A stretch of 64,000 nt of DNA from Fidelibacterota bacterium. Lineage in GTDB: Bacteria; Fidelibacterota; SORT01. A program made the translations under genes and the position numbers. Location: positions 1 to 64,000 of the forward strand of contig JACZYG010000006.1 in the NCBI GenBank assembly GCA_022571215.1. The letters are read 5' to 3'. The notes below the pieces were generated by a model. That model was not told the DNA's origin. It worked only from the letters and a program-made list of their open reading frames with translations, and ran no database searches. The number at the start of each line of letters is the position of its first letter. The first letter of the stretch is position 1. This document shows positions 20,757-23,100 of this stretch, in pieces.

Positions 20757-22121
20757 TTGTCACCACTTATTGCCACCCTGTCGGGAATCAGAGGAATTTA
20801 TGGTGACGGCTTGACACCCGAAGTTATCAGGAATTATACACTCGCGTTCGGCTCTCTTTATGGTCCAAAAATCGTAATAGGAAGGGATACCAGAACTTCA
20901 GGTCCGGAAATAGAATCAACGGTGTCTAAAACCCTTCTTTCAATAGGCTGTACTCCCATTCATCTCGGTTTGGTCACAACGCCGGCGACTCAATTGGCTG
21001 TTGAAAATTTAAATGCCGATGGCGGGATAATCATCAGCGCGAGTCATAACCCGGCTGAATGGAATGCGCTTAAACTTGTTGCTTCCGATGGTTCGTTTCT
21101 CCCTGAAGCCGGATTTAAAAAATTGCAGGATAAATTAGACTTGGGGGAGTACGAATTCGTTGACGGCGCTTCTGTAGGAGAGAAGCAAATATATGCCAAA
21201 GCAAATGAGGATCACATCGGATTGATTCTATCTTTGTCATATTTAGAGGTAGAGAAGATTAAGAAAAGGGCATTTAAGGTGGTAGTTGACTGTGTCAACG
21301 GTGTCGCCTCTGAAGTTCTTCCCGATCTGCTCGGATTGCTTGGTTGCGAGGTTACCAAAATTCATTGTGAACCGAACGGTCTTTTTCCACATACTCCTGA
21401 ACCTCTTGAACACAATCTTTCCGACTTGATAGAAAAAACAAAAGAAAATGAGGCAGACATAGGATTCGCCGTAGATCCGGATGGAGACAGGCTTGCCATC
21501 GTATCGGACGGAGGTAAGTATCTGTCTGAGGAGTATACCCTTGTTATAGCGACGGATGTTGTACTCTCGGGATTGCCCGAAGGTCAGAAAGTAGTTACAA
21601 ATCTGTCCACAACACGGGCGGTTGACGACATCGCCGAAAAACATGGAGCAGAGGTTATCAGAACACGGGTGGGTGAAATAAATGTCGTTCAGGAGATGAA
21701 AAAGGTGAAGGCGGTTATCGGAGGCGAGGGAAACGGAGGCGTCATACTTCCCGAAGCCCATTATGGACGAGACGCGCTTGTTGCCGCCGCTTCGGCGCTT
21801 CAATTTCTTACGAACCATGAAGAACCGCTCTCGGAGATCTACTCTAAAATGCCTCAATACGTGATGCTCAAAAGGAAGGCGGAGCTCGGCGGTGTGCCGA
21901 CTGATTCAATCTTAAAATTAATAGCCGGGCACTTTTCAGAATATGACGTAGATACGCGGGACGGCGTTAAAGTTAATAAGCCGGAGGGCTGGCTTCACGC
22001 GCGCGTGTCTAACACCGAGCCTATCATGCGGATTTACGTTGAGGCAAAGACTAAAGAGTCGGCAGAATCTATCTGGAATGAACTGGTGAACATACCGGGA
22101 TTATTATTAAGGGTAGTCTGA
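20757..22121 (+). CDS. glmM: Phosphohexomutase, phosphoglucosamine mutase type
   Basis: 454 residues, TTG start with AAGGAA upstream. The phosphoserine loop I-S-A-S-H-N-P places the catalytic Ser at residue 96. The Mg-binding loop is D-P-D-G-D-R and the C-terminal phosphate-binding motif R-V-S-N-T-E-P-I-M-R-I-Y. The S-N-T-E-P version is seen in GlmM proteins of Bacteroidetes relatives but also in phosphomannomutases, so substrate (glucosamine-6-P for cell-wall UDP-GlcNAc, or mannose/glucose-P) is not certain. Its TGA stop abuts the mobile BIME repeat at 22121, which appears to have inserted at the gene's very end without damaging it. Confidence 0.85.
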   Translation: MSPLIATLSGIRGIYGDGLTPEVIRNYTLAFGSLYGPKIVIGRDTRTSGPEIESTVSKTLLSIGCTPIHLGLVTTPATQLAVENLNADGGIIISASHNPAEWNALKLVASDGSFLPEAGFKKLQDKLDLGEYEFVDGASVGEKQIYAKANEDHIGLILSLSYLEVEKIKKRAFKVVVDCVNGVASEVLPDLLGLLGCEVTKIHCEPNGLFPHTPEPLEHNLSDLIEKTKENEADIGFAVDPDGDRLAIVSDGGKYLSEEYTLVIATDVVLSGLPEGQKVVTNLSTTRAVDDIAEKHGAEVIRTRVGEINVVQEMKKVKAVIGGEGNGGVILPEAHYGRDALVAAASALQFLTNHEEPLSEIYSKMPQYVMLKRKAELGGVPTDSILKLIAGHFSEYDVDTRDGVKVNKPEGWLHARVSNTEPIMRIYVEAKTKESAESIWNELVNIPGLLLRVV

Positions 22122-22365
22122 AAACCGTTAAAACGGTTCTACTATCCTATCGTACATACTTGACCCCTTGATAAATCAAGGGGTTAATGAGAGATACGGC
22201 AACAAGACCTCATAATATCAATGTTTGCTTCAGATACAGATAGATATTGAAAGATATGAAAATTTAACCTGATAATATAAGAATCATAGATTATATTTTA
22301 ATAACCCCTCGATTCATCGAGGGGATTACAAAAAGTGTATATGAAATCTAACCGTTTTAACGGTT
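22121..22365. repeat. BIME-like repeat, left copy (four-hairpin unit)
   Basis: About 245 bases. Ends are AACCGTTAAAACGGTT (22123-22138) and its exact reverse complement AACCGTTTTAACGGTT (22350-22365). Inside them lie two more hairpins, CCCCTTGAT-aa-ATCAAGGGG (22164-22183) and CCCCTCGAT-tc-ATCGAGGGG (22305-22324), which are also near-inverted copies of each other. The whole unit is therefore an imperfect inverted pair of two-hairpin REP modules. A second copy lies at 22818-23067. Confidence 0.85.
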
Positions 22366-22387
22366 TTTAAAACCAGGAATAATTTTA

Positions 22388-22828
22388 TTGGCTGAACATT
22401 CTTATACCTCCTGCTTGATTCATATGGTATGGGCGACCAAAGGACGACATAAGGTATTTCAAAAGAGAATCCGTATTAGTTTATCAGAATTTCTTACCGA
22501 ATATTCAAATTCAAAAGGGATTTATATGATAACTAATTATGTTAATTCTGACCATGTACATATACTTATTAGTCTGCCTTCCGATATGACCATTGAGAGT
22601 GTTGCAAAGACGCTGAAAGGAGGGTCATCATACTGGCTAAATCGAAACAGATTAACGAAAAATAAATTCTCTTGGGCTAGGGGCTATGGAGCGTTTTCAT
22701 TGTCACAATCGAATCTTGATAAAGTCGTCCGCTATATTGCTAATCAAGAATCTCATCATAAAAAGAAAAGCTTTTCGGATGAGTATGAAGAATTTCTAAA
22801 ATTCTATCAGAGTAAGAAAAACCGTTAA
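22388..22828 (+). CDS. REP-associated tyrosine (Y1, IS200-like) transposase, RAYT type
   Basis: 146 residues, TTG start. The H-x-H metal motif is in N-S-D-H-V-H-I-L, and the nucleophile Tyr lies in V-R-Y-I-A-N-Q-E-S-H-H, a form typical of TnpA-REP proteins. Such HUH enzymes cut single-stranded DNA at hairpins. It is flanked on both sides by BIME-like repeats, the expected substrate. The last codons (K-N-R-stop) are supplied by the right repeat copy itself. No TnpB or accessory gene is present. Frame intact, so it may be active. Confidence 0.9.
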   Translation: MAEHSYTSCLIHMVWATKGRHKVFQKRIRISLSEFLTEYSNSKGIYMITNYVNSDHVHILISLPSDMTIESVAKTLKGGSSYWLNRNRLTKNKFSWARGYGAFSLSQSNLDKVVRYIANQESHHKKKSFSDEYEEFLKFYQSKKNR

Positions 22829-23067
22829 AACGGTTCTACTATCCTAACGTACATACTATGACCCCTTGATAAATCAAGGGGTTAATGAGAGATACGGGAA
22901 CAAGACCTCATAATATCAATGTTTGCTTCAGATACAGATAGATATTGAGAGGTACGAAAACTAGACCTAATAATTTAATTAAAAATGATTGATAATATAT
23001 TAATAACCCCTCGATTCATCGAGGGGATTACAAAAAGTGTATATGAAATCAAACCGTTTTAACGGTT
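22818..23067. repeat. BIME-like repeat, right copy
   Basis: About 250 bases, a direct repeat of 22121-22365. Ends are AACCGTTAAAACGGTT (22820-22835) and AACCGTTTTAACGGTT (23052-23067). The flanks and hairpins are nearly identical between copies; the middle ~60 bases have diverged. The transposase TAA stop (22826-22828) falls inside the left end hairpin. Confidence 0.85.
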
Positions 23068-23100
23068 TACTACATATTTAGGGTGTAAAAAACCAAACGC

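Follow-up and report, generated by a model that had tools for sequence, protein, structure and literature searches.

REP-like hairpin repeats around an IS200-like Y1 transposase gene suggest a REP system outside the class 2 RAYTs in Fidelibacterota

A single-tyrosine (Y1) transposase gene from a bacterium of the phylum Fidelibacterota lies between two four-hairpin units made of REP-like repeats, and this pairing of gene and repeat is real and recurrent in the phylum. We observed the architecture of the locus, copies of the repeat throughout the genome, recurrence beside related genes, stems that change from locus to locus, enrichment of the repeat among carriers of the gene, and empty sites in relatives. 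We consider it likely that these repeats form a REP system whose enzyme is an IS200-like Y1 transposase (class 1, subclass 1.2) and not a class 2 RAYT. This suggests that a little-studied branch of Y1 enzymes keeps a short-repeat family of its own.

In the 64-kb window, by which we mean the whole stretch of DNA analyzed, a Y1_Tnp gene at 22388-22828 is bracketed by two direct repeats of ~250 bp, each with four hairpins. The features are listed below in window coordinates; R1 denotes a covariance model of one repeat half.

22121-22368, no strand assigned: unit 1, BIME-like, four hairpins in two inverted REP halves (R1 matches at 22119-22191, plus, and 22297-22369, minus)
22121-22138, plus: left outer palindrome of unit 1, with a TAAA loop (from palindrome analysis)
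22164-22183, plus: left inner hairpin of unit 1, CCCCTTGAT-AA-ATCAAGGGG, followed by TTA at 22184-22186 (a TAA foot on the other strand)
22305-22324, minus: right inner hairpin of unit 1, CCCCTCGAT-TC-ATCGAGGGG, with the foot TAA at 22302-22304 just before it
22350-22367, minus: right outer palindrome of unit 1
22388-22828, plus: gene for a Y1 (HUH, single tyrosine) transposase of 146 aa, from its Y1_Tnp match and motifs
22818-23068, no strand assigned: unit 2, four hairpins, direct repeat of unit 1 (R1 matches at 22816-22889, plus, and 22999-23071, minus)
22818-22835, plus: left outer palindrome of unit 2, containing the transposase stop codon
22862-22881, plus: left inner hairpin of unit 2, followed by TTA at 22882-22884
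23007-23026, minus: right inner hairpin of unit 2, with the foot TAA at 23004-23006 just before it
23052-23068, minus: right outer palindrome of unit 2

The original prediction, made from the sequence of this region, described a transposase gene framed by two four-hairpin units of ~250 bp, and the two are indeed copies of one another, with 231 of 253 aligned columns identical (91%). The four hairpins of each unit are all perfect, the outer ones spanning 16-18 nt and the inner ones 20 nt, and the right half is inverted with respect to the left, so that two REP-like halves in inverted orientation form a BIME-like unit as had been proposed. The end palindromes AAACCGTTAAAACGGTT and AACCGTTTTAACGGTTT are, as claimed, exact reverse complements, whereas the statement that the inner hairpins also mirror each other holds for their layout and not for their sequences, which differ. 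Both boundaries were read correctly: the transposase stop TAA (22826-22828) falls within the left palindrome of unit 2, which supplies the end of the gene, and the last base (22121) of the glmM stop codon (22119-22121) is also the first of unit 1. Folded as single-stranded DNA, unit 1 has a z of -8.6 relative to 200 shuffles, 0 of which were equally stable. Differences between the units are mostly central, in agreement with the predicted variable middle: 16 fall in the 72 columns of the middle and 6 in the 181 columns of the halves (Fisher p 8e-6). The well-conserved part extends ~60 nt beyond the left inner hairpin and is therefore not confined to the hairpins. Selection or gene conversion may act on the hairpins of these two units, but the idea is not supported as worded. 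Better evidence of constraint comes from other loci of the phylum than from these two units.

The transposase gene starts with TTG, preceded by AGGA, and its product matches Pfam Y1_Tnp (E 2e-28), with the catalytic tyrosine in the YIANQ of YIANQESHH and with DHVH as its HUH motif. Solved IS200/IS605 transposases match the protein, ISHp608 best, and the HUH and Y motifs align with those of the solved members. The NCBIfam model for the IS200/IS605 family (NF033573) gives 81.6 bits, above its cut-off of 55, and the model for REP-associated tyrosine transposases (NF047646) gives 27.3 bits, far below its cut-off of 80. The class 2 motif Y---NP is absent from the protein, which has YxxxQxxHH instead, and the GT[AG]G foot of class 2 TnpA_REP is absent from the repeats, whose foot is TAA or TAG with no fixed G preceding it. 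The predicted label of RAYT thus suits the look of the locus by analogy but fails as a statement of membership. As described in PMC6006769, TnpA_Y1 subclass 1.2 comprises proteins of ~148 aa with YxxxQxxHH and DH[IV]H, present in few copies per genome and marked "no" for REP; the protein studied here has Y---Q--HH, 146 aa and DHVH, and its genome has one copy. By these scores and motifs, the transposase belongs among the IS200-like class 1 enzymes and bears the subclass 1.2 signature. Its gene is the only Y1_Tnp match in an assembly that is 96.7% complete, in which no near-identical gene copies of the kind found for an IS200/IS605 insertion sequence were detected. The nearest named relative, in a metagenome-assembled genome (MAG) labelled Chlorobiota, is 54% identical, and plasmid and phage records held distant relatives only, all below 60% identity. 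The Fidelibacterota setting supports the expectation of a REP-like locus outside the Gammaproteobacteria.

Copies of the repeat are dispersed through the same assembly (G000; 71 contigs, 2.56 Mb). The end palindrome AACCRTTAAAAYGGTT has 39 exact occurrences, compared with 0 for a reversed control pattern, and R1 has 56 matches at E<=0.05, of which 4 are at this locus and the others at 29 further places; at 27 of these 29 a match reaches E<=0.001 (places counted by reading the match list). Solitary copies, for which the original prediction had proposed a search, therefore exist, mostly not as the 250-bp unit but as a three-hairpin element of ~103 bp, whose left and right palindromes are AACCGTTAAAACGGTT and AACCATTTTAATGGTT and whose inner hairpin is, for example, TAACCCCTGGATTAATCCAGGGGTTA. 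Fifteen whole elements were recovered with a pattern that preset their ends, with 1 and 2 mismatches allowed: the left end is CCGTT in 14 and CAGTT in one, and the right end is CCATT in all. In this form a TAA foot adjoins the inner hairpin on either side and the loop is mostly the symmetric TTAA, as though the middle had dropped out from between two inverted halves, which is the account given in PMC6006769 for the "double foot" REPs of another subclass (2.4). Twenty of 22 elements checked overlap no ORF of >=100 aa and are thus intergenic, often near gene ends. A gene flanked by inverted palindromic repeats with dispersed intergenic copies is the REP/BIME arrangement. The orientation of elements relative to GC skew (6 versus 12, p 0.24) was not significant, in a test weakened by a script that missed several known elements. 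At C67:48178-48434, a solitary four-hairpin unit is fused to a three-hairpin element, with one palindrome in common, and at C19:59389-59824 an element and its flanks occur twice, 334 bp apart and nearly identical, which represents a local duplication. Some intergenic stretches of this genome (for example L015, L020, L023 and L027) hold other short palindromic repeats, GTCAGGATAAATCCTGAC and CCCCTCCTT..AAGGAGGGG among them, in the same mosaics and without a known enzyme.

When 100 genomes of the phylum, including the one studied here, were searched, Y1 relatives were found in 57, at 99 places besides our gene. We examined 94 loci, comprising our own, 89 of the 99 relatives (the ten weakest excluded) and four from named records, and counted as a half any pair of TRAA-loop hairpins, the outer of 6+ bp and the inner of 8+ bp, that were separated by 34-54 nt and lay within 450 bp of the gene. 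A full half was present at 27 of the 94 loci and at 0 of 94 in each of 100 first-order Markov resamplings. When the loop was left unconstrained, 111 of 118 perfect flank hairpins of 9+ bp still had a TRAA/TTYA loop. On the gene tree (92 rows, two loci being too short), TRAA-loop hairpins of 8+ bp lie on both sides of 27 genes, on one side of 16 and beside none of the remaining 49. Their presence is clearly clustered, with most in three clades and none in others, such as a clade of 15 rows. Because 67 of 94 loci lack a strict half and 49 of 92 lack an 8-bp hairpin, the link between gene and repeat holds for certain clades only. The HUH form is present at 91 of 94 loci, and hairpins accompany 34 of the 44 loci whose protein has the residues SV[SGD] following the W region and 10 of the 50 without this motif, kinship being ignored in this count. 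Of 44 hairpin-flanked genes, 8 have their stop codon within an AACCGNTRA palindrome, as do 0 of 50 others. Among the 33 other loci that were inspected first, 16 have gene flanks joined by at least 20 direct-orientation 13-base matches. Scanned with R1, the four named-record genomes gave 24 and 7 matches in two Chlorobiota-labelled MAGs and 6 and 8 weak ones in two Algoriphagus genomes; as judged by eye, the Algoriphagus genes have adjoining TAAA-loop hairpins, the inner one with a mismatch, and TGGGCTAAAGCCCA occurs 6 and 3 times in these genomes. No hairpins were found beside the gene at a Bernardetia locus, and those at a Persicobacter locus have loops of another type.

Across loci, the parts of the half behave differently. 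Forty-two halves, picked from 59 and aligned, have 31 distinct inner arms and 18 distinct outer arms, and the loops are TAAA or TGAA only, as selected. Of the bases that follow the inner hairpin, T is second in 39 of 42 halves and A is third in 36 of 42, which on the other strand reads as a TAR foot 5' of a TTYA-loop hairpin. Since stem sequences vary between loci while loop, layout and TAR foot persist, chance landing does not explain the hairpins beside Y1 genes. Base-pair statistics looked strong and were not used, as the stems had been preselected as perfect and helix 2 had been assigned 6 pairs; for this reason, the case rests on the shuffles and on the unconstrained loop count. These regularities also bear on a reading that places the role of the hairpins in RNA, where they would serve as terminators or stabilize mRNA, and that takes their position beside the gene to be regulatory. 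The intergenic placement of the elements, often near gene ends, and the palindromes at the stops of glmM and the transposase gene would suit such a role, but terminators would not be expected to show two hairpins at a fixed spacing, TRAA loops in a set orientation and a foot, or to bracket Y1 genes, and all Rfam matches were sub-threshold and to eukaryotic RNA families. We consider this reading very improbable.

The association with a Y1 enzyme that we prefer extends to whole genomes. R1 matches occur in 77 of the 100 genomes, where at most 48 candidates per genome were scored, making all counts lower bounds. At least 5 matches are found in 47 of the 57 genomes with a Y1 gene and in 9 of the 43 others (Fisher p 9e-10, with these lower-bound counts and with kinship, genome size and completeness ignored). 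A member of the same family, G003, has at least 43 half-repeat matches (L167-L174) and no Y1 match; either the repeats outlived the enzyme there or the gene is unassembled. Among 26 loci, distances between hairpins and between genes are correlated significantly, though weakly (rho 0.20 and 0.18; Mantel, with 27 and 37 of 5000 permutations as high).

One could also suppose that the enzyme and its hairpins were tamed together and serve the host, for example by processing single-stranded DNA at forks or gene ends, and that movement is past or incidental. The single gene copy with its catalytic motifs intact would fit this notion, as would the intergenic position of 20 of 22 copies and the 8 of 44 hairpin-flanked genes that end inside a palindrome. 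No result obtained here indicates a host role, however, and the repeats are nearly absent, with at least 2 R1 matches each, from two genus mates without the gene, whose genomes are 69% and 66% complete. We therefore regard a host role as rather unlikely.

The comparison with empty sites proposed in the original prediction returned relatives that lack the gene and both units or lack a stretch with a dispersed element. With these sites and the copies elsewhere in the genome, the outcome that the original prediction named as its refutation did not arise. In G003, the end of glmM is followed directly by a dehydrogenase gene, the same gene that stands to the right of unit 2 in the window, with no Y1 gene or units between them. 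In G001, a member of the same genus, a glmM that is 84% identical is followed by an eroded-looking element and then by other genes. Elsewhere, at C50:49045, an intergenic block of ~338 bp that contains an element is missing from G001, G003 and G004; as the whole block is absent and not the element alone, the site does not tell how much was inserted as one piece. At the position corresponding to C1:244190, G001 and G002 hold ~1.5 kb of other sequence, and a look-alike empty site inside a repeat mosaic of our genome (L027) was a single case and was set aside. The description of the locus as young and possibly active is not supported as worded: the dispersed copies are of the three-hairpin form and, short palindrome-only matches aside, share at most ~82% identity with the bracketing unit where the two match, and no recent move of a single element was seen in the genome. 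Recent activity in this genome is thus not supported.

A different kind of spread is evident in three other genomes. In G017, G065 and G072, near-identical three-hairpin copies sit inside a longer MITE-like element with inverted ends TGAGTCCACT...AGTGGACTCA; these elements (L182, L183, L186-L191 and L206) lie on several contigs, and several copies have matching 4-bp flanks as judged by eye. Such copies were probably spread by another, DDE-type transposase. This raises the alternative that the repeats are in general passengers of DDE-type miniature elements or of mosaic recombination, with the Y1 gene merely lying between two of them. In addition to these three genomes, the mosaics of other repeats in which copies of our genome lie, the absence from relatives of the whole 338-bp block and the repeats of G003, which has no Y1 match, could be accommodated in this way. 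No inverted ends TGAGTCCACT/AGTGGACTCA were seen around the copies of our genome, however, and hairpins recur beside Y1 genes with changing stems and with fixed loops and foot, and we judge the passenger alternative decidedly unlikely. In G065 (L187-L190), and behind glmM in G001 (L162), the terminal hairpin is enlarged by a loop insert with a sequence like GATGCC-TTTGGCAAA; this enlargement occurs in two different families of the phylum.

Returning to the reading we favor, a REP system of a subclass 1.2 enzyme, we propose that each repeat half serves as a signal by folding when the DNA is single-stranded. It consists of an outer hairpin with a stem of 6-8 bp and an inner hairpin with a stem of ~9 bp, both with a TRAA tetraloop and 36-50 nt apart from centre to centre, and the strand that reads TTYA in the loop carries a TAR foot on the 5' side of the inner hairpin. 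Two inverted halves make the four-hairpin unit, resembling a BIME or REPIN, and loss of the middle would give the dispersed three-hairpin form, in which the common inner hairpin has a symmetric TTAA loop and a foot at either side. The enzyme probably binds the hairpins as single-stranded DNA through loop and foot, and its tyrosine probably cuts near the foot, as in TnpA_REP and IS200/IS605 enzymes; for TnpA_REP, tyrosine-mediated cleavage near the foot has been reported by others (PMC8266576). Units and elements would then be DNA that was moved or copied by the enzyme in the past, and we infer, from the analysis of these sequences, mobilization by this enzyme.

More tentatively, and with the balance leaning slightly against it, REP systems may have arisen twice, with class 1 subclass 1.2 acquiring its own REPs, composed of double-hairpin halves with TRAA loops and a TAR foot, independently of the class 2 RAYTs. 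Such an origin would account for orphan palindromes, for example that of Caldithrix abyssi. If it was independent of class 2, an IS200-like transposase would have become a repeat-keeping system more than once. Through the pairing of gene and repeat described here, an orphan HUH subclass gains a likely substrate, and an orphan palindrome gains a likely enzyme. Furthermore, with so many stem variants occurring naturally around an unchanged loop and foot, the rule by which a Y1 enzyme recognizes a hairpin can be tested directly.

Our findings can be placed among several known systems. The REPtrons, in which class 2 TnpA_REP (RAYT) proteins are associated with REPs, BIMEs and REPINs, are described in PMC2817692, PMC8266576 and PMC6006769 as sharing a Y1 HUH gene, inverted hairpin repeats and many intergenic copies. 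They likewise have a foot 5' of the hairpin, and the TAR foot observed here is on the GTAG side of canonical REPs. Some printed REPs, for example those of Haemophilus influenzae and Marinomonas, have TTYA-type loops as here (PMC2817692, PMC8266576), and the "double foot" forms of REPtron subclass 2.4 (PMC6006769) are comparable to our three-hairpin form. Unlike the REPtrons so described, the protein here is class 1, with YxxxQxxHH and not Y---NP, the foot, TAR, lacks the G of GTAG, two hairpins make up each half, and the genes are often bracketed by direct copies of a whole four-hairpin unit. In IS200/IS605 insertion sequences such as IS608 and ISDra2, which have the same enzyme family, hairpins also flank the gene on both sides, whereas here there is one gene copy, no TnpB was seen adjoining it, and the hairpins recur in four-hairpin units and are also scattered through the genome on their own.

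The palindrome itself has appeared in print. In a literature search for its letters, the sole match in one open-licence collection was PMC5317091 (2017), on an 18-nt palindrome of Caldithrix abyssi described as REP-like, with a centre that depends on the half of the chromosome in which it lies. This palindrome, AACCGTTgaAACGGTT, is the outer palindrome found here, with the same GA/AA polarity of its centre; its 38 exact copies, leaning intergenic, were likened to REPs and, unlike ours, were described in that paper as lying outside larger repeats, in an account that names no transposase for them. The closest match for the enzyme is TnpA_Y1 subclass 1.2 (Quentin et al. 2018, PMC6006769), which has in common with it YxxxQxxHH, a length of ~148 aa, DH[IV]H, low copy number and relatives in Bacteroidota; the account of the subclass given there lists no REP, whereas part of the genes studied here are flanked by hairpins. 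The general kind of gene-repeat system and the palindrome were thus already known, and what is new, relative to that open-licence collection, is the finding of REP-like repeats for subclass 1.2.
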